The notes under the pieces were generated by a model that searched no databases, was not told the origin of the DNA, and saw only the letters and a program-made list of their open reading frames with translations. A stretch of DNA of 40,228 bases from Nitrobacter winogradskyi (GTDB taxonomy: Bacteria > Pseudomonadota > Alphaproteobacteria > Rhizobiales > Xanthobacteraceae): NCBI RefSeq assembly GCF_006539545.1, contig NZ_BJNF01000014.1, forward strand, positions 1 through 40,228, read 5' to 3'. Positions 5,993-34,880 of the stretch are shown here, piece after piece (position 1 is the first letter of the stretch; each line of letters opens with the position of its first letter). The translations under genes were made by a program, and so were the position numbers.

Positions 5993-6065
5993 GCGGATTT
6001 AGCTTAGTGGCAAAGCAGCGGCTTCCAGGTCGCAGACCGATGTTCGATTCATCGAATCCGCTCCA
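5993..6065 (+). tRNA. tRNA-Gly(UCC)-like gene with irregular anticodon arm
   Basis: A cloverleaf can be drawn by hand. The acceptor is GCGGATT/AATCCGC (7 bp), the D arm GCTT-AGTGGCA-AAGC, the T arm CGATG-TTCGATT-CATCG, followed by discriminator T and an encoded CCA. The first three pairs, U73 and the TCC anticodon are tRNA-Gly identity elements. The anticodon arm is 16 nt instead of 17: GCGGC/GTCGC closes a 6-nt loop (TTCCAG), or a 4-bp stem closes an 8-nt loop. It is either a functional but unusual glycine tRNA or a recently decayed copy. A second irregular tRNA-like gene lies 300 bp away on the other strand. Confidence 0.7.
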
Positions 6066-6361: not shown

Positions 6362-6436
6362 TGGAGGCCCAGCCTGGACTTGAACCAGGATAAAAAGCTT
6401 TGCACAGCTCCCGCGTCGAACTTCCGCCACCGGGCC
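6362..6436 (-). tRNA. tRNA-Cys(GCA)-like gene with irregular D and anticodon arms
   Basis: Read on the minus strand: acceptor GGCCCGG/CTGGGCC (one G-T pair), T arm CCTGG-TTCAAGT-CCAGG, discriminator T and encoded CCA. G2-C71, C3-G70, U73 and GCA are tRNA-Cys identity features. The D arm has only GCG/CGC with loop GAAGTTCGA, which lacks the usual GG pair. The anticodon arm is one base long: GGAGC/GCTTT closes an 8-nt loop TGTGCAAA, or a longer stem closes the 6-nt loop GTGCAA. It may be a divergent tRNA-Cys, a specialised non-translational tRNA or a pseudogene. It lies 75 bp beyond the end of the methyltransferase gene, on the same strand. Confidence 0.55.
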
Positions 6437-21692: not shown

Positions 21693-22766
21693 TTACCGAC
21701 CCGTTAGGCCGCCCAAATCGATAACGCGGCAACTCGGTTTCGCTGTTACTGTTGTGCTGCTTTCGTTTGGCGGGAAAGTATTGGCCTCGCAGAAAAATGA
21801 GAGCTGATTGCCGGGTGTATTGATGGATGGAGTTAGCCGATATCCATTCAGGGTTCGCGGTGTGGTGACCAGCAAGAGCCACTCGATGTCAGTTCGAACG
21901 AAACCATTAAGCGTTGCAGGGATGGCCGCCGAGGCCGGCACATCTTGAAAAACCTGACATCGATCTGCAATCCCGTTCGCTTCTCCATAGAAAAGGAACA
22001 GATTCCTAGCACTCGTGAAATAGAAAGCTACCAAGTTGAGACCCATGTAGGCCGGTGAAATTTGCGCGACCGCGAAGCTCGAGTTTTCATCTGTTGAAGT
22101 GAACGCGATAGGTTCTGAGGCTAACAATTCGTAGTCCACGGACTTACCAGACGGCCAATCGTAAAGCATGTCCGAATAGACAGAGTAACGAAAACCGTTG
22201 TTAAAATTGCTCACAATGTTAACGAAGCCTCCAGTAGTAGCGGCCGATCGATCAGCAACTACGTTCCGCATCGTCGAGAACAAATCGCTTGCGGGAGAGT
22301 TCGCAAGGTCATCAGCAAACAATGCAGCATTGATAGCTCGCCCCTGTTGCTGTCTCGGCCGATGCCGCGCTTCATAAGTCCGAAACTTAGAATATGCCCC
22401 TTGATCGCCGATCCACTGCGTTTTCGAAAAGCTGGAGACACGCTTGCCATCAACTATCTTAAGAAGCCTTGCAGGATTCGCGAACGCGACCATGTAATCG
22501 TTTCCGGTGCTTTGGCTCGATTGCTCAAAGAAGGTCACGACTTCATTGAAAGCTGCTCCTAAAGGATACTTGAAAGTAAAATCTTTGAATGCACGACCTG
22601 CTGTGACAGGAGAGTTTGAAAATGAAACGCACACATCGCCCGGAAGCATGCACGACTTGATCACACCATCCTGAAACGGAAGTGCTTGCCCCCCGGGGCC
22701 AGTCAACAGCGTATCCGAAGCAATAGAGACACGCGGTCCGGCGATTCGGCCTACGACCAACGTCAC
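21693..22766 (-). CDS. orphan proteasome/HslV-like Ntn hydrolase (putative)
   Basis: A 357-residue protein starting at GTG 22766 (ggaagg ribosome site). The N terminus MTLVVGRIAGPRVSIASDTL resembles proteasome beta and HslV subunits. If Met is removed, Thr becomes residue 1, Asp falls exactly at position 17 and Lys at 36 (near catalytic Lys33), the three catalytic positions of that fold. The next part, VCVSFSNSPVTAGRAF and DYMVAFANPARLLKIVDGKR, follows the HslV layout. The C-terminal half (about 190-357) has no counterpart in HslV. There is no ATPase partner beside it. Function is unknown; self-processing peptidase activity is an inference. Confidence 0.6.
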   Translation of the reverse strand: MTLVVGRIAGPRVSIASDTLLTGPGGQALPFQDGVIKSCMLPGDVCVSFSNSPVTAGRAFKDFTFKYPLGAAFNEVVTFFEQSSQSTGNDYMVAFANPARLLKIVDGKRVSSFSKTQWIGDQGAYSKFRTYEARHRPRQQQGRAINAALFADDLANSPASDLFSTMRNVVADRSAATTGGFVNIVSNFNNGFRYSVYSDMLYDWPSGKSVDYELLASEPIAFTSTDENSSFAVAQISPAYMGLNLVAFYFTSARNLFLFYGEANGIADRCQVFQDVPASAAIPATLNGFVRTDIEWLLLVTTPRTLNGYRLTPSINTPGNQLSFFCEANTFPPNESSTTVTAKPSCRVIDLGGLTGR

Positions 22767-22829
22767 GATACCGCCTTCCGTTTAGATATGACTGATACGC
22801 TGGATATAGCTCATCACCGCCATCTGTGG

Positions 22830-23997: not shown

Positions 23998-25431
23998 CTA
24001 TGCAGGTTTCAATAGTCCCATGCGAGCACAATGCGCGATCTCGCTCATCAAATCGCCAGTTCCGAAGATTAAGCTGCCTACTGGAGCGCTCGCAATTCTT
24101 AAGTCGCGAGTGCGTTCGCAAAGAAACGTGAACTGGTCGATCGACAGCCACCAGGACGCGCCGATGTATCGCTTAAGAAAATTCTCGAACTTACCACCGT
24201 CCTGTTCCGCAAGAAATGTAATGCCGTCGACGACGCTCCTGAGCTTCTTATTGACTCTATCGACGTCAGCTTGATGCTTACCGTTGACTGTGACGAAGGT
24301 CGCGCCCCAGAGCCCCACAAGAAATGCGCGGATAAACATCCGATCCTGCATAGAACCATGGTCGGTCATTGTGATGGCCAGTCGCTGAATACGGCGCCCA
24401 TTCAGCGCGAGATTCTGTCCATTTAAAAAGCGGATCCCACCGGCGCGGAGCTGACTTTCGTGCCGATTGATCTGTATCAGCGGCGCCAAGAATGCTGAAG
24501 CGAGGTCTACGGCGGCCGAGAGGACGTTGCCAGCGCGGGCGTCATTTGTGAGTTGCTTCTTCTTGCACTCAACAAAGAAAATGTGCTCATCGGACTCATC
24601 TGCAAGGTCAATTTCGAGCGGTGCGCGTCTATGGCTCTGGCCCGCAGGCCGATATGCTCGTGCAAAATAAGCAGGCGGATGCCCGGTAAGTTGCACTGCT
24701 TCGGCAGCCATATGCTCAAGGGCTTTACCCATACGATTTTCGAGATCATCAACTTCGGCGTCCCGCAATAGCTTGTAGATGCGCTCAAAGAGGGCACGTG
24801 CGGCCATACCTCGCGGAGGCAAAGCGTAAAGTTCACCGGATATCTTGAAGAGAGGAAAGTATGGGCTATTCCGGTGTGGCGTGTCGATTGGAAGCGCGTA
24901 TCCTTTGTTTAATTTAGTAAGAGGAATTGCCAATAGCTCAAACAATTCGACTACGCGAGCAGTTGAAAGCGCGTAAGTTGAATACTCCGACGGATGCGTG
25001 ATCGTCAGAGCCGATATTTGTGAATTCTTGATCAGTAACAAACCAAGCGTTTCCCATTCCTCGCGTGAAGCATGAGGAAAAACACAGCCTGCTTTTTCTA
25101 GGTTTTTTAGCCAAGATGAAAAAACTTGGCTCGCGACCTTCGGCTGCCATTGTTGGAATCCGAATAGTTCATCGTAAAGAATACGGTCCAAAATACTTCG
25201 ATAAAAGTTGGAAGAGGTCAAAATCATGCCGTCGAAAGTAGAATAAGTTTCGAAGTCGAAAATTGCCGACATATCACGTGCAAGATCTGTTAAATCCTTT
25301 ATATCCTTCTCGGGATCACTTGATCCTGGCGATGCACCAAAATGCTTCCATGCGATGTTGTAAAGAAAATGCCACGGAATGCTTGGCCTTCGTCTGTTCG
25401 GAAGCTGACTCACTGTTCGACCGTAGAGCAA
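23998..25431 (-). CDS. PD-(D/E)xK nuclease-like protein
   Basis: A 477-residue protein read from TTG 25431. Residues 235-295 fit a restriction-endonuclease-like fold: motif I Glu239 in GKALEHMAAEAVQ, motif II Asp275 in APLEIDLADES and motif III Glu288-x-Lys290 in FFVECKKKQL. The flanking regions (1-230 and 310-477) are helical and unrecognised. The gene begins 8 bp after the TGA of the 206-residue gene in another frame. A GAAGG ribosome site overlaps that junction, and the frame also remains open upstream to the shared T-run. So it is either a second gene of a pair or the continuation of one protein. Defence or DNA repair is plausible; function unproven. Confidence 0.75.
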   Translation of the reverse strand: MLYGRTVSQLPNRRRPSIPWHFLYNIAWKHFGASPGSSDPEKDIKDLTDLARDMSAIFDFETYSTFDGMILTSSNFYRSILDRILYDELFGFQQWQPKVASQVFSSWLKNLEKAGCVFPHASREEWETLGLLLIKNSQISALTITHPSEYSTYALSTARVVELFELLAIPLTKLNKGYALPIDTPHRNSPYFPLFKISGELYALPPRGMAARALFERIYKLLRDAEVDDLENRMGKALEHMAAEAVQLTGHPPAYFARAYRPAGQSHRRAPLEIDLADESDEHIFFVECKKKQLTNDARAGNVLSAAVDLASAFLAPLIQINRHESQLRAGGIRFLNGQNLALNGRRIQRLAITMTDHGSMQDRMFIRAFLVGLWGATFVTVNGKHQADVDRVNKKLRSVVDGITFLAEQDGGKFENFLKRYIGASWWLSIDQFTFLCERTRDLRIASAPVGSLIFGTGDLMSEIAHCARMGLLKPA

Positions 25432-25438
25432 CGAGCCT

Positions 25439-26059
25439 TCAAAAAATACGCTTATTCACCTCAAACCATTTTAAGGTTGCATCGATAACCTGCCGGCCGC
25501 CGATGTGCTTTATGCGCCTTTCAATGTCCGCGCATATCGGGCCTAAATCAGTGGTACTAATATCCACGCCTAATGCATTTAGAGTGACGATAAATCCTTG
25601 GGTTTCCAGTCGCTTGCAAGCCTCGCCTACGGCGACTGTCCGGTCGTCAGAATGGCGTTCGTAGCCTGAGAAATGTAGGATACGGCGAGTTTCCGCGATA
25701 GCATGAGACCATGATGCTACATCTTTAAAGTCGGCGATGGCTTTGATCGCCGGATCGGCACGGAAGATGTCGATTATTTCACAGAGCACATCATATTTTT
25801 CGCGTGTGACTCGTTGTAATGCAACGGCGATTCCGACCGGGCGCTTCAAGCTAAAAAGTGCTGAAAGAAGAAGACCGTTTGTGCAAGCGAGACCCGAACG
25901 AACTCGTTCTTTCATTCGTTCGATCTCGCCATTGCGCGACCATACTGAATCATCGGGCGACGGGCTCAATACAGGTTCTTCTGGAATTGGTTCGTTCCAA
26001 CCAGGTTGATCGAAATAGAGATCAAGGCTTCTCTCATGAAGTTGAGACATCATCCTCAT
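25439..26059 (-). CDS. hypothetical partner of the nuclease-like protein
   Basis: A 206-residue acidic protein of unknown family. The N terminus (MRMMSQLHERSLDLYFDQPG) is followed by a Pro-rich acidic linker and a mainly helical body ending KWFEVNKRIF. The final codons read AUU UUU UGA in RNA, and a +1 slip over the U-run would carry translation straight into the next frame (EGSLLYGRTV). Alternatively translation stops and restarts at TTG 25431. In-frame ATGs at 26059, 26053 and 26050 compete; none has a clear ribosome site. Confidence 0.65.
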   Translation of the reverse strand: MRMMSQLHERSLDLYFDQPGWNEPIPEEPVLSPSPDDSVWSRNGEIERMKERVRSGLACTNGLLLSALFSLKRPVGIAVALQRVTREKYDVLCEIIDIFRADPAIKAIADFKDVASWSHAIAETRRILHFSGYERHSDDRTVAVGEACKRLETQGFIVTLNALGVDISTTDLGPICADIERRIKHIGGRQVIDATLKWFEVNKRIF

Positions 26060-27342: not shown

Positions 27343-28020
27343 CTAAGAGGATGAAATAAGTTTCTCGATCGCCTCTAGAACCTGTAAGTGATCCCTTGTG
27401 CTTAGCGGGGCGCTGGTAAAGTAACGCTCTTGCCCGAAAGGTACGTTTGCCCGTCGCTCCAGAGTGAAGCGAGGCGCAGGAAGCTTCAGCGTTTCGCTCG
27501 TTCGATCAAATTCGAAATCCAATCGAGCGAACCCCATCTTGTCAGGCGTGCGAAAGAGCTCACCTGCTTTCAATGAGACCACTTGGGAAATGGCATCATA
27601 CGCCGCTAATAGTCGATCTAAAGGTCGGTCGAAATCCACGACCACGTTGCTCAAGAACAATTCGCGCATCGATGTGAGTTCGCGGAATGACCACTCAGTC
27701 TGCAGCCAAGTCATCAGATCAGTTAGAAAGTGCTGTCCGATGTCGGTCGTTTGCGCGGCTGCTACAAACCCGTCAGTATAGACCCAGAACTCATTGATCG
27801 CCCCAGAATGGGTATCCGACTTGAAATGACCTGCGCCGAAACGAAAGCCTTTCTGCTTGAATTCCTCCAACGTCACAGCGACGTTCGGCACTTGGGCGAA
27901 GTTGTAGCGAGCGACCAGCATCGGCAAAAACGTAGGGTCGTTGATGCCATCAATCGGGTGTACCGCCTCGAACTGAAATAGCCATGTAACTCGGCATGTT
28001 TCGTGGGCGACGAGCTTCAA
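27343..28020 (-). CDS. third gene of toxin-antitoxin operon, unknown function
   Basis: A 225-residue soluble protein (MKLVAHETCRVTWLFQFEAV). Its ATG overlaps the antitoxin TGA (ATGA at 28017-28020), so it belongs to the same operon and is probably made in proportion to it. The middle has strand-rich segments EFWVYTDGFVAAAQTTD and FLTDLMTWLQTEW. It does not look like the SecB chaperone of known tripartite systems. A chaperone, a second antitoxin or an effector are all possible. Confidence 0.75.
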   Translation of the reverse strand: MKLVAHETCRVTWLFQFEAVHPIDGINDPTFLPMLVARYNFAQVPNVAVTLEEFKQKGFRFGAGHFKSDTHSGAINEFWVYTDGFVAAAQTTDIGQHFLTDLMTWLQTEWSFRELTSMRELFLSNVVVDFDRPLDRLLAAYDAISQVVSLKAGELFRTPDKMGFARLDFEFDRTSETLKLPAPRFTLERRANVPFGQERYFTSAPLSTRDHLQVLEAIEKLISSS

Positions 28021-28583
28021 TTGACCGCACTCCGTGGCGTGGCAAATATAGCGCTGTTCAATGCACCGATATTTCCTTGGCCAATGGCGTTGCCGAAGCC
28101 TGCAGCATCCCAGAGTCCGCTTTCGCCGAATAGCTGGACGAGCGATCGGTTATCCGATTGCGATTGCTGTGCAGTTCCGCTTACTTGCGCGAGAGCCGTT
28201 CCATCTTGCACTTCGCGAAGGACCTGAGGTTCCACCATGAGGGACTCGTAAACCGTCGCCGGCTGCATTGCGACAACGCTTGAGTCCATGACTGAATTTA
28301 GGAAATCAGGGTAACTTACGAACCTGACCTGCAACGCAACGTCGAGACTGCATGCGATGTCCAGCAGCGTTTGCACGGTTACCTTGCCGTATTCGGAGTT
28401 CTCAAGGCGCGAAATGGTACTCTGTTTCTTGCCTAGCCGTTCAGCGAACGCTTGTTGAGTTAGGCCGGTTTTCTCGCGAAGCGCCTGGATCTGATAGGCT
28501 ATCCAACCTCGAACGGTTGTTTGCAAATACCCGTCACGGAAGGACTTCTCTCGAAACTTTTCAAGCTTACGTCGGTCGAACAC
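28017..28583 (-). CDS. XRE-family antitoxin/regulator (HigA-like)
   Basis: A 188-residue DNA-binding protein. The HTH_3 domain is at about 30-85: QIQALREKTGLTQQAFAERL with recognition helix KKQSTISRLE. After residue 90 comes an unusually long polar tail rich in Ser, Gln and Gly (ending AIFATPRSAVN). Simple HigA proteins are near 100 residues. The start overlaps the end of the toxin gene by 17 bp, a layout typical of HigBA-type modules with the toxin first. It is expected to repress its own operon. Confidence 0.85.
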   Translation of the reverse strand: MFDRRKLEKFREKSFRDGYLQTTVRGWIAYQIQALREKTGLTQQAFAERLGKKQSTISRLENSEYGKVTVQTLLDIACSLDVALQVRFVSYPDFLNSVMDSSVVAMQPATVYESLMVEPQVLREVQDGTALAQVSGTAQQSQSDNRSLVQLFGESGLWDAAGFGNAIGQGNIGALNSAIFATPRSAVN

Positions 28584-28947
28584 AGGCGAGGGCCTTTTTG
28601 GGGTTTGCTTCGATCTCTTTTTTTCGCTTCACGGCTGTTTTTTTCACGTCGGCTGGGTCGTAGACTTTCTGCTTGTGGTTGCAGATGGCGACAACGATGA
28701 ACTCCCGCCTCGCCGTCCCGTAAAAGCCCAAGACCCTCCATTCGATCTTGGCTGCATCGGTCAATCGAATTTCGATGATCTTGTTTTTCTTATCTAGGAT
28801 GTCGGAATAGGGCTTTTTCCATACGTCGCGGCCTTCGAGATTGTCGAAAACAGATGAGTGCGAACCCTGAGCGGTGGTGGTGGCATCATACCATCGCTGC
28901 CATAGGTTTAAGGAACCTCCATCATCGTAGCAGCGATAGGTCCACAT
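28567..28947 (-). CDS. HigB/RelE-like toxin (phage Gp49-like)
   Basis: A 126-residue protein. The C-terminal half has the RelE/HigB-type pattern: IIEIRLTDAAKIEWRVLGFY, then EFIVVAICNHKQKVYDP and a basic helix KKTAVKRKKEIEAN. Family members cut ribosome-bound mRNA. The N-terminal 50 residues are longer than usual. It is the first gene of the operon, and a promoter is expected in 28948-29000. Assignment rests on pattern and gene order. Confidence 0.75.
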   Translation of the reverse strand: MWTYRCYDDGGSLNLWQRWYDATTTAQGSHSSVFDNLEGRDVWKKPYSDILDKKNKIIEIRLTDAAKIEWRVLGFYGTARREFIVVAICNHKQKVYDPADVKKTAVKRKKEIEANPKKALACVRPT

Positions 28948-29947: not shown

Positions 29948-30490
29948 CTAAGCTTCGAGCGCTCTGTAAACGCTCGCACGGCCTATCTTGAGTGCCTTAG
30001 CAATCGCGACCGGTCCCAAACCTTCTGCCTTGAGCGCCCGGACCTTGGCAACGTCAATCGACGGCTTGCGGCCCTTATAGACGCCTTCCGCCTTGGCCTT
30101 GGCGATCCCTTCTAGCTGGCGTTCCTTCCGCAGGTTGGTTTCAAACTCTGCGAATACGCCAAGCATATCCAAAAATGCCTTCCCAGCGGCGGTGCTGGTA
30201 TCGATCGGTTGCTCCGTCGCCTTGAGGCTTGCACCCTTAGAACGTACGGCCCGAACAATATCCTGCAGGTCACCAATGGAGCGGGCTAACCGGTCAATCC
30301 GGGTCACGGTTAGCACGTCACCAGCCCTCAGAAAGTCTAGGATCGTCTGCAACTCAACTCGCCCGGTGGTGCTAGTTCCTGAAACCTTCTCTGAACGGAT
30401 CACCTCGCAGCCTACAGCCCTAAGCGCCGCGATCTGAATGCTCACGTCCTGGTCGGTGGTGCTAACCCGCGCATAACCAATTGTGGTCAT
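29948..30490 (-). CDS. serine recombinase (resolvase/invertase family)
   Basis: A 180-residue small serine recombinase. The catalytic domain begins MTTIGYARVSTTDQDVSIQI with the nucleophile Ser10 in ARVSTTDQ. Conserved Arg residues appear in DVLTVTRIDRLARSIGDLQD. Helix E is in AFLDMLGVFAEFETNLRKER. The C-terminal HTH is at about 145-178 (ALKAEGLGPVAIAKALKIGR). Length and layout are those of Tn3-type resolvases and DNA invertases. A res-like repeat region lies immediately upstream. No transposase is adjacent. Confidence 0.94.
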   Translation of the reverse strand: MTTIGYARVSTTDQDVSIQIAALRAVGCEVIRSEKVSGTSTTGRVELQTILDFLRAGDVLTVTRIDRLARSIGDLQDIVRAVRSKGASLKATEQPIDTSTAAGKAFLDMLGVFAEFETNLRKERQLEGIAKAKAEGVYKGRKPSIDVAKVRALKAEGLGPVAIAKALKIGRASVYRALEA

Positions 30491-30590
30491 TTGACTGCCT
30501 CTGTCTCATTTGACTCTAGACGTTAAATCTCTAGTGTCTCAAAATACTGGAGTCAATTCTATTGAGACAAATATTTTGTCTCGTGGCGCT
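30491..30590. promoter_or_regulatory. res-like recombination/operator site
   Basis: Immediately upstream of the recombinase start are four tgtctc/gagaca elements. These include the near-palindrome gagacaaatattttgtctc (30564-30582) and tgtctc at 30502-30507 and 30535-30540. Spacing and AT-rich centre resemble the paired subsites of a resolvase res site, which also serves as operator. Assignment is by position and pattern only. Confidence 0.5.
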
Positions 30591-30826
30591 GTACCGCGAG
30601 GGTTTACCCTATTGGGACGTAATGGGACGATTGAGAGAGAGTTAGGATCCCGAGATCAGTTTGCAGTGATCCGGCAGCAGGGCCCGCATCACCTGCTCCC
30701 GGCTTTCGATCAACCGGAGAGGATCACCGGGCAGCAGTCCGAATATTCACGCTTGGCAGCGATCTCCAAACAATCACTAGCCAAGGCGATGCGTGGAGGT
30801 CGGGAAATCAGATCTGTTCCCTAACC
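30591..30826 (-). other. possible gene fragment
   Basis: The minus strand carries two short matching pieces in different frames (SDCLEIAAKREYSD, then LIESREQVMRALLP). This looks like the decayed end of a small rhizobial protein. No complete gene is seen here. Confidence 0.3.
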
Positions 30827-31372
30827 TCATTTGCCATGACCACTGACGAGGCTCAGTTGCACTTCAATGTCGTTGAAGGCGGGTTGCGGTTGTAAGCTGT
30901 AAACCTCGATTCGATGGTTACCTCGATTGAGGTGTAATCGGCCAATCATCCTGCCCTTGGAGTTTCGTATGTGGCTCATATTGCATAACGAGTGGAAGGT
31001 TTGATCAACTACGGGAGCTTCTCCAGGTTTTGCGCGAACAACGACTCTGAAGGGAATGGGAAGGCCCAAGCGGGCGCGCGCTCGGTCCGGGATAGCGTCG
31101 TAGTCTGTATTGCTGGTACAGAAACTGCTGCTGTCTCCGTCTCCTACAAGCTTGTCTGCAACACGGGCTTCAATCGAAGGAAAGACAAATTCAAGTTCAA
31201 GCTGATACGACTTGTCCACGGGCACGTTGAATGCCCTATCGAGGATCAAGCCAGACTCTCGAAGGGAAACATCAGTAGCTGCAATCAAGGGCGGGAACGC
31301 GCAGAGCCCCGTGATAAACATTGCAAGCCCAATGATCTGTTTCTGGCAAAGACTGTAGGTGATTGGTCCCAT
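30827..31372 (-). CDS. hypothetical secreted protein (DUF5625-like layout)
   Basis: A 181-residue protein with an N-terminal signal or anchor (LAMFITGLCAFPPLIAATD). The mature part is strand-rich: LELEFVFPSIEARVADKLVG, PIPFRVVVRAKPGEAP, and a closing NHRIEVYSLQPQPAFNDIEV. This layout is reminiscent of DUF5625, a periplasmic or lipoprotein beta-sandwich of unknown role, but the match is weak. An alternative start is the Met at residue 18. It lies between the recombinase and the tape-measure gene. Confidence 0.6.
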   Translation of the reverse strand: MGPITYSLCQKQIIGLAMFITGLCAFPPLIAATDVSLRESGLILDRAFNVPVDKSYQLELEFVFPSIEARVADKLVGDGDSSSFCTSNTDYDAIPDRARARLGLPIPFRVVVRAKPGEAPVVDQTFHSLCNMSHIRNSKGRMIGRLHLNRGNHRIEVYSLQPQPAFNDIEVQLSLVSGHGK

Positions 31373-31736
31373 GTGATCGTCTTCTGCGTCAAATGCTGTG
31401 ATCTAGCGTCACTAGTTGTGTCGTCTTAAACTTGGTTCTGAATTACTCGACAAAGTAACGCGACGCGTTGCTGTCGTTTGTGAACAGTAGCCAAGCGCCT
31501 CGCAGACATCCCCTCCGGTTTTCCCTCGGTCGAAGCAAGGACGCCGGTTTTTTTATTGGCACCGGCCCCCAGGTCGGGAAGCCCGCTCATACTTTCGAGC
31601 ACCGAACGCGACGTCATATCGCGTAATACCAAGCCCCTCTCGCGAGAGGCACCCCCAAAATCTTAAGTCCCACCCCATCGCGAACCGCTTTTTGCGGCGC
31701 GCGCCCTAAAAGCCGTTTTATCAACTGAGAAGAAGA
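31373..31736. other. spacer before tape-measure gene
   Basis: No supported gene. A purine-rich ribosome site (gagaagaaga) ends the spacer at 31736. The sequence 31555-31600 is GC-rich with possible secondary structure. Confidence 0.35.
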
Positions 31737-34700
31737 ATGACTGAAAACATCAATGTCCGGTCCACCCTAACTGCCGTCAACGAAGCCTCGCCAGTGATCC
31801 GCAATGTCATCGCGGACCTGAAGCGGCTGGAAAGAGTCGGCAAAAGCTTCAACGCGTCGTTTGCTAACCTAGGCCGTGCAGGGATTGCGTCCCTGGATGG
31901 TTTCTCCCGCGCTGCGAAAAGTGCAGCGGCGGAGATGCACGGCATCGCCAACACGGCAAGGTCCGCGAGCCGGTCCTATTCAGAATCATGGTCCCGCGCG
32001 ACCGAACATCGGCTTAATGAAAATCGGCGGATGTACGCTCACCTTGAGCGGTTGGAATCCACTTACCGGCAACAGATCGAAAGGACTGCGGCTGCGGAAC
32101 GTCGTGCGGTGCGTGGTGGTGCTATCGGTCGCGGCGGCATCGGCGGCGGTCGCTTGCCCGCTCCGAGTCTTCGCTCCATTGCGATCGGTGGCGTTATCGG
32201 TGGTGCTGGGATCGCAAGCGCTATTAGGAAACGACTTGAAGTGCAGGCTGCGGAAGTTCGTAGCCAGATGTTTGGTGAACTATCCAAAACCGAGACCGAA
32301 GCACTGCGGAGTAGTTATGCCGATAAAGCCGGAATCAAGTACGGCATTGGCACGTCGGAAGCGCTGGATGCTGCGACTGAAGGGCTCAAAGCCGGAATCG
32401 CAAAGCAGTTCGCTGGTGAATTCGGCGATCTGGCTTTGAAGGCGCAAGCCGGACTCGATATCCCTTCCGAAGACGTTGCGAAGTTGCTTGGTCGTCTCGC
32501 TACTCAGATGCCCTGGTCCAAGGACCGCTTCAGTAAGGTCCTTAATGCGGTTGCAATTGCTAACCGCGACACAGCAGCCTCCGGTTCCGAAATAGTGGAA
32601 GCTACGCGGCGTTCGTTATCGGCCCTCGTAACCACGAAGATGACGCCGGAGCAGCTCGCGGCCATCAACGGCACCAATATCTCGCTAGGTGTCCAGCCTT
32701 TCAAGGCTGGGACGTTTCTTTCCTTCCTGACGTCTCAAGTCGCCGGAGCCAACTCCGCCCGCTGGAATACGCAACCGGCGAAAGACCTCAGGTCGGCCAG
32801 TATGGCGCTCGGTTTTGGTGGTCGTGGCGGTATGGCTCAGGCCATGCGGGACAACCCGGTAGAAACGTACCTGAAGATCCTCGATCAGTTGGCGCAGATG
32901 CCGGAAGTGCTCCGAACGAAAGTTGCAAAGCAACTCGGTGGGCGAGAATGGATGGATGAGCTTCTGACGGCGGTTCTAGGACGCGACAAGCTCCGGCAGG
33001 TTCTTAAAGACATCGGCAAGAATTCCGGATTCCTCGACAAGGTGGCGCTGCAAAAGATCAGATCTATGAAAGGCCGGTGGGCTTCAATCTCTGCCGCCTT
33101 TGAACTCGCTTGGGAGAAGATCGGCGGCGGTATGGAAACCGCCTTCGATCAGATCAGCAATGCCATCATAGATCTTGCAGATCGGTTCAATTTCGACTCA
33201 GTTCGCGATCATTTTTCCGCACTCATTGACGGTATCCGCGAGGGGTTCGGCTTGAAATCTTGGGGCGATGCTGTGAACGCGTTCGCCAAGGAATTCGACG
33301 CCGGAACGACCGCCAAGTGGCGAGCTTACGGAAAAGGCTTTGCCGAAGGTATCCGAGAATTTGCCGGTGGTCTTGCAACCGCGTTCAGTGTCGTTCGGTT
33401 TCTGGCCGGAAGTTCGAACGATTCCGAAGGCTTTGGCCGGTTCACGGCAAAGATGACCGGCCTGGTGATCGCTCTGGCCCTACTATCGCCCGTGCTGTCA
33501 GTGCTATCGATCTTCACCGGTCTCGTGGTGACACTGGCGAACCTTAATCCGTTCGCGCGGCTGGCTCTTGGTCTCACGGCACTGGCCTTCGGCATTAAGC
33601 GAGTTTTGGATTTCGTTGCCGACAAGATTTTCTCGGTTTTCGTGTCCATCGTGGATTCGATCAAGAATGTAGCCTTATCGATCGTCAACACTGTGCGCGG
33701 ATGGATCGGCCTCGCCCCCCTAGGTGCTGGCAGCCATGGCGCGTCCGGCAGTTGGACTGATGCCCCAAAATCGTCCGGCGCATCGGGAGGGTGGAGTCCA
33801 ACCTCGCGGAAGGCAGCACAATCCTTCGCTAATCCCGGAGCAACGCCTGCAAGCTACACCACCGGTAGCGGGCTAAACGGCGATTCCTATAGTCAGATGT
33901 TTGCCGGTACAGCGTTGGCAGGCAAAGGCGCTCAGATCGCAGCAGCAGCAAAGGCGAACGGTATCCCGCCCGAATTACTCGGAGCCGTGATCGCTCACGA
34001 AACCGGCAAAGGTCGCAACGTCCGCTTCAATAATGTCGCTGGATTGATGGACCCCGAAACAGGTTTTAAAACTAAGCAGGGATTTGCCAGCATTGATGAC
34101 GGGATCAATGCTGCGGCTCGCACCGTCGCAAAGAACTACCGGGCTGCCGGGGGAGACCTTGGCAAGATGGGCGCTAGGTATGCGCCTGTCGGTGCTGCCA
34201 ACGATCCGAACGGCCTGAATAAAAACTGGCCTAATGCCGTTACCGGATATCAGCGCCAACTGTCATCGACCGGCATCATGAGCAAAGACCCGGTTGACGT
34301 TGCTAGTCAGTTCGTCGGCAAAAACGAGTATCAGGACCGCGCCGAGCTAACGAGCTTCGTTAGGCATGACGTTGCTGGCAAGGTGAATGCATGGTGCGCT
34401 CGTTTTGTGAACTCCTCTCTAGCCGCTGCTGGTGGCAAAGGAACGGGTAGTGCTGCTGCTAGAAGCTTCTACCAGTGGGGCGATCCGGTAACGGACGCGG
34501 TGAAGCGGGGTGATGTCATGGTCGCACCTCACCACGTCGGTTTTGCCACCGGTAAAGTCAGCGCGGATGGCCGAATCCAGATGCTTTCCGGCAATCACGG
34601 CGACGCCGTTGGTTATAGCTGGGAGCCTCGTGGAAAGTACCAGCTAAGAAGGGGATCTATCACAAGCGGAGTTCCCCTTCCTCAGGATGCAATCAAAAAC

Positions 34701-34880
34701 GTGCCTTCGATCACAAACCAAAACGGAGACGCTAGTCTCGGTGGTGGTTCACGTGGACAGGTCGCGATCAATATCCATGGCGGTTCCCACGATCCTGAAG
34801 CTCTTGCCCTTCTGGTGCAGCGTCGAGTCGACGAGTCGATGAACTGGCGAACTCACGAAAGTGAGTCGGAATACACCTAA
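31737..34880 (+). CDS. phage tail tape-measure protein with C-terminal peptidoglycan hydrolase domains
   Basis: A 1047-residue phage tail protein. Residues 1-130 are helical and coiled, typical of tape measures; about 165-480 resembles the TP901 core (FGGRGGMAQAMRDNPVETYL). A hydrophobic stretch lies near 572-620 (GLVIALALLSPVLSVLSIFT). A lysozyme/transglycosylase-like segment follows (about 723-840: GIPPELLGAVIAHETG). The end has a CHAP/NlpC-type domain (about 855-985) with Cys near 885 in VNAWCARFVNSS and His near 933 in VAPHHVGFATG. Such domains let the tail cross the cell wall. No tail or capsid genes flank it, and it ends at a strong terminator. Confidence 0.9.
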   Translation: MTENINVRSTLTAVNEASPVIRNVIADLKRLERVGKSFNASFANLGRAGIASLDGFSRAAKSAAAEMHGIANTARSASRSYSESWSRATEHRLNENRRMYAHLERLESTYRQQIERTAAAERRAVRGGAIGRGGIGGGRLPAPSLRSIAIGGVIGGAGIASAIRKRLEVQAAEVRSQMFGELSKTETEALRSSYADKAGIKYGIGTSEALDAATEGLKAGIAKQFAGEFGDLALKAQAGLDIPSEDVAKLLGRLATQMPWSKDRFSKVLNAVAIANRDTAASGSEIVEATRRSLSALVTTKMTPEQLAAINGTNISLGVQPFKAGTFLSFLTSQVAGANSARWNTQPAKDLRSASMALGFGGRGGMAQAMRDNPVETYLKILDQLAQMPEVLRTKVAKQLGGREWMDELLTAVLGRDKLRQVLKDIGKNSGFLDKVALQKIRSMKGRWASISAAFELAWEKIGGGMETAFDQISNAIIDLADRFNFDSVRDHFSALIDGIREGFGLKSWGDAVNAFAKEFDAGTTAKWRAYGKGFAEGIREFAGGLATAFSVVRFLAGSSNDSEGFGRFTAKMTGLVIALALLSPVLSVLSIFTGLVVTLANLNPFARLALGLTALAFGIKRVLDFVADKIFSVFVSIVDSIKNVALSIVNTVRGWIGLAPLGAGSHGASGSWTDAPKSSGASGGWSPTSRKAAQSFANPGATPASYTTGSGLNGDSYSQMFAGTALAGKGAQIAAAAKANGIPPELLGAVIAHETGKGRNVRFNNVAGLMDPETGFKTKQGFASIDDGINAAARTVAKNYRAAGGDLGKMGARYAPVGAANDPNGLNKNWPNAVTGYQRQLSSTGIMSKDPVDVASQFVGKNEYQDRAELTSFVRHDVAGKVNAWCARFVNSSLAAAGGKGTGSAAARSFYQWGDPVTDAVKRGDVMVAPHHVGFATGKVSADGRIQMLSGNHGDAVGYSWEPRGKYQLRRGSITSGVPLPQDAIKNVPSITNQNGDASLGGGSRGQVAINIHGGSHDPEALALLVQRRVDESMNWRTHESESEYT

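Follow-up and report, generated by a model that had tools for sequence, protein, structure and literature searches.

The minus-strand open reading frame at 21693..22766 of a 40,228-nucleotide stretch of Nitrobacter winogradskyi DNA (the window) is a real, conserved gene in accessory DNA. Its product is predicted to be a divergent proteasome-like hydrolase with a C-terminal extension, separate from HslV. The proteasome ancestry is well supported, activity of the putative enzyme is likely, and action on a specific partner is probable. The original observation of a solitary proteasome/HslV-like hydrolase holds, with the frame placed on the minus strand, and the interpretation built on it is partly supported.

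The Gene and Its Product

The frame, read from 22766 to 21693, encodes 357 amino acids and begins with GTG, while translation of the plus strand of the same interval meets many stops. A GGAAGG sequence at 22774..22779 (minus strand) is the probable ribosome-binding site, with the start codon 7 nt further on; six codons upstream of the GTG lies an in-frame TAA, and no ATG, GTG or TTG intervenes. Compared with its homologue at locus L023 (69% identical), the gene carries 80, 64 and 204 differences at codon positions 1, 2 and 3, respectively, over 343 codons, and the homologues showing such third-position divergence are 68–69% identical to the window protein. The ribosome-binding site and this divergence mark the frame as a real gene. 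Moreover, the excess of third-position changes relative to L023, together with the retention of Thr1, Asp17, Thr18 and Lys36 in all 11 intact members of the family, indicates a gene conserved beyond chance.

The predicted N-terminus is Met-Thr-Leu-Val-Val. A methionine that precedes a small threonine is the usual substrate of methionine aminopeptidase and is removed, and the catalytic residues are numbered here from that threonine.

Evidence for Proteasome Ancestry

Taken alone, the window protein had no match in Pfam, NCBIfam, PHROGs, PADLOC or the PDB sequences. Even at E values up to 1 no Pfam match appeared, so that, unlike HslV, it falls under the Proteasome cut-off. The relationship emerges from comparison of profiles. 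An 11-row profile of the core (residues 1–200, 22167..22766 on the minus strand, with the end near residue 200 placed by eye from alignments) was aligned by hhalign with 33 HslV sequences and gave a score of 28.5 over 119 collinear columns. The highest score among 100 controls, of which 50 were column-shuffled and 50 rotated and reversed, was 16.0. In this alignment Thr1 is paired with Thr1 of HslV, Asp17 with Asp17, and Lys36 with the lysine of the K-V-R segment, which contains the catalytic Lys33 (E. coli HslV numbering). Against 10 Anbu sequences the same core profile scored 22.2 over 24 columns (control maximum 19.4). Full-length profiles of eight members scored 20.4 against HslV, with 18.6 for the best of 30 shuffles and 15.9 for the reversed profile, and 25.5 against Anbu, with 19.0 for the best shuffle; HslV and Anbu, accepted relatives, score 17.6 against each other by the same method.

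An open search points in the same direction. The 11-row profile, run against 245 genomes of the class with an E limit of 0.01 (values per genome), found matches in three: the window's own genome, G244, with another proteasome-like protein (8.5e-5) and HslV (2.9e-4), and G343, with HslV (4.5e-4). These matches were identified by reading the frames, and an HslU-like frame lies downstream of each HslV gene. Pfam confirmed HslV at locus L095 (4.1e-25) and the other proteasome-like protein, at L093 (3.1e-7, over the Proteasome cut-off). With the 11-member profile and an E limit of 10, the PDB chains gave 15 matches, of which 14 were proteasome alpha-7/alpha-8 subunits (E 0.11–0.14), near-identical orthologues that count as one match, aligned across the Lys/Phe-Ala-Gly segment; the two- and eight-member profiles matched nothing in the PDB. 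As for single members, L029 reached the Pfam Proteasome family at E 0.024, below the cut-off, and L086, L088, L089, L027 and L026 had no match to it. Two single-sequence structure models were of low confidence (mean pLDDT about 31).

Overall, the protein is almost certainly of proteasome-like ancestry, judging from its sequence, and a four-layer Ntn fold would be expected. The assignment to proteasome/HslV-type Ntn hydrolases is supported: it is carried by the controlled profile–profile alignment and the unprompted HslV matches, with the proteasome chains adding weakly. A further divergent proteasome-like homologue, a 195-aa protein at L069 starting MTVITAAIKDGKVCISADT, was found with PF00227.

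Predicted Catalytic Residues in the Family

Fourteen family loci were read, of which three (L025, L028 and L087) are interrupted and were excluded from the alignment. The 11 intact members (the window protein, L023, L024, L026, L027, L029, L030, L086, L088, L089 and L002) are 272–373 aa long and come from the window, nine genomes of its order and one Rhodococcus plasmid. All 11 have a Met-Thr N-terminus; in L026, L030 and L086 the start was set at the methionine preceding the threonine despite a longer frame. Homologues lacking Thr at position 2 of the unprocessed protein were looked for, and there were none among the 11.

Seven residues are invariant in the intact members: T1, D17, T18, K36, G106, G119 and G178. 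Three of these are the residues originally named as catalytic, and after removal of the methionine they fall exactly where proposed. The presumed nucleophile Thr1 is encoded at 22761..22763, Asp17, which pairs with HslV Asp17, at 22713..22715, and Lys36, the equivalent of catalytic Lys33, at 22656..22658, all on the minus strand. Again as predicted, the elements between Thr1 and the IG(S/D) segment, both included, stand in the alignment in the order known from HslV. Once Lys36 is set on Lys33, position 50 (22614..22616, minus strand) takes the place of Gly47, an oxyanion-hole residue of proteasomes (PMC8665760). It is Asn in 4 of the 11 members (the window protein, L023, L024 and L026) and Gly in the remaining seven.

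Distribution

A single-protein search of 101 related genomes and 385 genomes of the class returned only the window protein itself. Among plasmids, a single relative was found in Rhodococcus qingshengii; its E value is 0.2, and Met-Thr, Ser-Asp-Thr and Lys are kept on alignment. Further plasmid searches led to the same record and no additional one. A scan of genome contigs, viral contigs and phages, which requires short conserved stretches and misses distant relatives, gave no relative; the sole pattern match in viral contigs, L091, proved unrelated when read.

Profiles and narrower genome sets revealed more members. A two-row N-terminal profile matched eight of 397 genomes of the order at E up to 0.1, including G948 (6.7e-70) and G071 (3.2e-6); the other five non-self matches (E 0.007–0.08) are weak and were not counted as family. 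In 242 genomes of the genus of G948, the window protein found matches in seven, two of them interrupted copies. An eight-row profile matched eight of 258 genomes of the taxonomic family at E up to 0.01, from which the window's own gene, G948, G1360, G1427, G1133 and the interrupted copy of G007 were counted, and a match in G1372 and a second one in G1360 were not. The genome sets of these separate searches overlap, so that their counts are not additive. Four non-self genome matches, covering only the C-terminal part and in three cases containing stops, were set aside. The proteins of L090 (genome G002) and L093 were also left out of the family as different proteasome-like proteins, and direct BLAST of the window protein against L090 gave nothing convincing. 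In effect, the window gene is sporadic, with a rare and patchy distribution.

The C-Terminal Extension

Residues 201–357 (21693..22166, minus strand) form an extension that is present in the family members. Identity to L023 is 72% over residues 1–200, 70% over 201–285 and 53% over the aligned part of 286–357; thus, the first part of the extension (201–285) matches the core in its degree of conservation. Aligned by BLAST with L026 and L027, the window protein is covered up to residue 273, and for the most distant members no clear alignment of the extension is obtained. A profile of the extension alone did not exceed controls against either HslV or Anbu. The extra C-terminal part foreseen in the original prediction therefore exists, but with the boundary set by eye it comprises about 155 residues and not about 170. 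Its description as new stands insofar as it has no known match, although similar unmatched domains have already been reported for some proteasome-like subfamilies (PMC8665760).

Genomic Setting

The gene sits in accessory DNA of lower GC content than the adjoining core genes: GC is 0.57–0.65 at 14–19 kb, where rpoD and other core genes lie (named by eye), and 0.47–0.55 at 19–32 kb. The enzyme was expected to be free-standing, and this is supported: the host genome encodes a separate HslV-type protein on another contig, and a Pfam scan of 10 neighbouring genes found neither HslU nor another ATPase.

The nearest sizeable same-strand gene upstream, at 23998-25431, is 1.2 kb off. It encodes 477 aa and is adjacent to a gene of 206 aa (25439-26059); both lie on the minus strand and have no confident family match. 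By eye, the EIDL...FFVECKK stretch of the 477-aa protein recalls PD-(D/E)XK nucleases. Further away, 27343-28947 (minus strand) is occupied by overlapping genes: one with a sub-threshold match to Gp49-type toxins (28567-28947, E 0.0005), an HTH gene (28017-28583) and one for a 225-aa protein with no family assignment, the first two being assigned by Pfam scan. The interval 29948-34880 is possibly a prophage or mobile element, with a resolvase gene (29948-30490, Pfam scan) followed by a 1047-aa frame that resembles, by eye, a phage tail tape-measure protein. Additionally, 29409-29834 matches Rap1a immunity proteins (2.5e-14) and 30827-31372 matches DUF5625 (1.9e-6). Two ARAGORN tRNA-like hits on opposite strands (5993-6065 and 6362-6436) have incomplete anticodons and are probably spurious.

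No partner gene for the enzyme was recognised in the window, and tblastn of the window with the HEPN or HEPN-like proteins of three relatives gave nothing at E 0.05. The window enzyme had no PADLOC match, and neither had L029, L086, L088 or L090.

Neighbours of the Relatives

A HEPN-type gene lies immediately upstream in 3 of the 11 intact loci (L023, L024 and L029, representing two lineages), and none is recognised upstream in the other eight, which include the window. At L024 this gene, of 336 aa, is separated by 29 bp from the family gene, lies on the same strand as it and matches HEPN_RiboL-PSP at E 6.7e-6 with the motif R-N-E-L-V-H. Its 26.6 bits are below the cut-off of 28.4; for LprI the protein exceeds the cut-off (26.4 vs 22), and it also matches PADLOC RTasHEPN weakly (E 0.003). 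A homologue of this gene is found upstream at L023. Downstream in both L023 and L024 is a gene of 377–385 aa with R-N-K-L-T-H, and upstream of L029 is a gene of 301 aa with R-N-K-L-I-A-H. These motif-only neighbours had no Pfam, NCBIfam or PADLOC match, and one of them had no PDB match either. In HEPN Rx4-6H motifs the residue following Arg is typically N, D or H, according to a review of HEPN proteins (PMC3710099).

Six of 173 frames (those of at least 150 aa in 15 stretches) carry the pattern RNx[hydrophobic]x(1,2)H, where residue shuffling gives 2.1 on average; five of the six directly adjoin family genes. With hand-set counts and two related loci collapsed, 3 of 26 neighbours carry it compared with 1 of 147 others (Fisher p = 0.011). 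The motif was picked post hoc, after the genes had been seen, and this enrichment is suggestive only. The genes upstream of L027 and of the Rhodococcus member look HEPN-like by eye, lack the motif used and were not counted. The HEPN-flanked cluster of L023 and L024 contains a third gene (L023:5828-6718 and its L024 copy) that appears by eye to encode a trypsin-like protease; the L023 gene had no Pfam, NCBIfam or PADLOC match.

Other relatives have different surroundings. A RES/Xre pair adjoins L025, a PIN-domain gene lies about 2 kb from L089, a gene for an ScfR-type regulator precedes L086, and DUF4160 and DUF2442 genes come after L030. The thiC gene is directly beside L030 and L087 (L087 by eye), in two genomes of different families, which makes a shared insertion site possible. 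The member at L088:5377-6498 adjoins terminase- and portal-like genes (by eye), a setting in which phages or gene transfer agents may act as carriers of the family.

A separate proteasome-like gene, at L090:4462-5696 and L093:1076-2265, overlaps its upstream gene by 4 bp. The L090 copy matches Pfam Proteasome at 7e-4, below the cut-off passed by the L093 copy. The upstream genes are 40% identical; that of L093 matches SocA_Panacea (E 1.4e-4, below cut-off), and that of L090 has no Pfam match. The pair, found in two families of the class, may be an adaptor–protease cassette. No relevant paper on a link between Panacea/SocA and proteasomes was found in the open-licence literature, and none was found there that joins HEPN with a proteasome-like protease, or HEPN with an Ntn-hydrolase and phage.

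Membership in a defence or stress system, also raised in the original prediction, is no more than plausible for the window copy, on account of the HEPN-type, toxin-antitoxin and phage-like genes near some relatives.

Possible Functions

The explanation that we favour, with some confidence, is that the gene encodes a cytoplasmic, free-standing, proteasome-like hydrolase with an N-terminal threonine, likely provided with a dedicated partner. Methionine aminopeptidase would expose Thr1 with no propeptide involved, Thr1 would be activated by Lys36 and Asp17, and the enzyme would need no unfoldase for its action. A dedicated protein partner could be selected by the C-terminal extension together with the variable-length stretch that follows the IGD segment. 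The outcome would most likely be a specific cut in that partner, or a specific join as in connectase, and not bulk degradation; in this family the partner may often be the product of a nearby toxin or defence gene, for example one of the HEPN-type proteins beside some relatives. The parts of this explanation differ in strength. The putative enzyme is quite probably active, the balance tips slightly towards a dedicated partner over bulk proteolysis, and a role in conflict or defence is tentative, falling a little short of an even chance. Counting against the explanation as a whole are the lack of a recognised upstream HEPN gene in 8 of the 11 loci, the window included, the distance of 1.2 kb to the nearest sizeable same-strand upstream gene there, the Asn at the oxyanion-hole position, the models at pLDDT of about 31, the full-length HslV score close to that of shuffles, the extension with no HslV or Anbu match, and the lack of telling context in PMC8665760.

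A narrower form of this explanation, whose likelihood overlaps with it, places the protein in a toxin-antitoxin or abortive-infection module as the protease component. The enzyme would restrain or release a HEPN RNase, release being triggered by the binding of a phage or stress signal to the C-terminal domain, and the window copy would be an orphan with a distant partner. The HEPN_RiboL-PSP match upstream in L024 and its homologue in L023 are consistent with it, as are the RN-type HEPN motif genes downstream of L023/L024 and upstream of L029 with their post hoc Fisher value, the RES/Xre pair and the PIN-domain gene. However, the association covers only two independent lineages, the L024 HEPN score is below the curated cut-off in a protein whose LprI match passes its own, the motif-only neighbours have no library match, shuffled frames already yield about a third of the motifs seen, and the enzyme itself has no PADLOC match. 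This reading is possible, though it falls clearly below an even chance. Even more speculative, and rather unlikely, is a version for the whole family, whose members would supply the protease or protein ligase in conflict modules of a kind not recognised before. There, a proteasome-type enzyme carrying a recognition domain of its own would directly control an RNase toxin by cutting the toxin or its inhibitor, with no ATPase involved; the L090/L093 lineage would be a parallel case.

The same catalytic residues could instead serve a general stress peptidase that needs no unfoldase and, as a small ring or another assembly, removes unfolded or damaged proteins. Such a role has been proposed for BPH and the uncapped 20S proteasome and is suggested for homologues of this kind in PMC8665760; the catalytic residues shared with HslV, with no ATPase among the 10 neighbours scanned, fit it. 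An enzyme of general quality control should persist more stably within a lineage, which disfavours this reading: in one genus the gene occurs in 7 of 242 genomes, with two copies interrupted, and 3 of the 14 family loci read are interrupted. The long C-terminal extension is also unlike the compact BPH and HslV. We regard this alternative as unlikely. Less probable still is that the gene is a mobile-gene relic that has become inactive or is drifting, Asn50 and the missing partner marking a non-working copy. The Asn found in 4 of 11 members, the interrupted relatives L025, L028 and L087 and the lack of a recognised partner gene in the window would suit a relic, but the catalytic residues are retained, the third-position excess extends across the core and the first part of the extension, and the start and ribosome-binding site are good. 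Furthermore, the oxyanion hole uses a backbone NH, so that glycine is not strictly needed there.

The family combines invariant catalytic residues and an extension with neighbours that are, in some genomes, of the HEPN or toxin-antitoxin kind. It offers a concrete and testable partner hypothesis, and it could show that bacterial conflict systems employ proteasome-type enzymes with no unfoldase.

Comparison with Known Systems

Thr1, Asp17, the catalytic Lys, FxG and a segment like IG(S/D)G follow one another in the window family as they do in HslV. Unlike HslV, the window protein has no Pfam Proteasome match and carries a long C-terminal extension. It is not HslV itself: the host HslV is encoded elsewhere, the window protein exceeds HslV in length by more than 150 residues, and among the 10 neighbours scanned there was no ATPase. 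The likeness to Anbu lies in an N-terminal block that contains Thr1 and S/A-D-T (positions 17–18), where only 24–26 columns align.

Fuchs, Alva and Lupas described 22 new proteasome-like subfamilies in 2021, with no genomic context hinting at function (PMC8665760). Among them, RPC and DAH have extra C-terminal domains with no known match, and PMI-2 to PMI-6 have insertions between H3 and H4 (PMC8665760). The window family resembles these subfamilies as a distant bacterial proteasome homologue with no ATPase partner identified, and some of them share an unmatched C-terminal domain. Compared by description only, it may be one of them, DAH, RPC and PMI foremost. Connectase is likewise a stand-alone, proteasome-like enzyme that acts without an unfoldase, but H1/H2 are missing from it and two helices are inserted at S3/S4 (PMC8665760); unlike connectase, the window family has, by eye, about 35 residues in the place of H1/H2.
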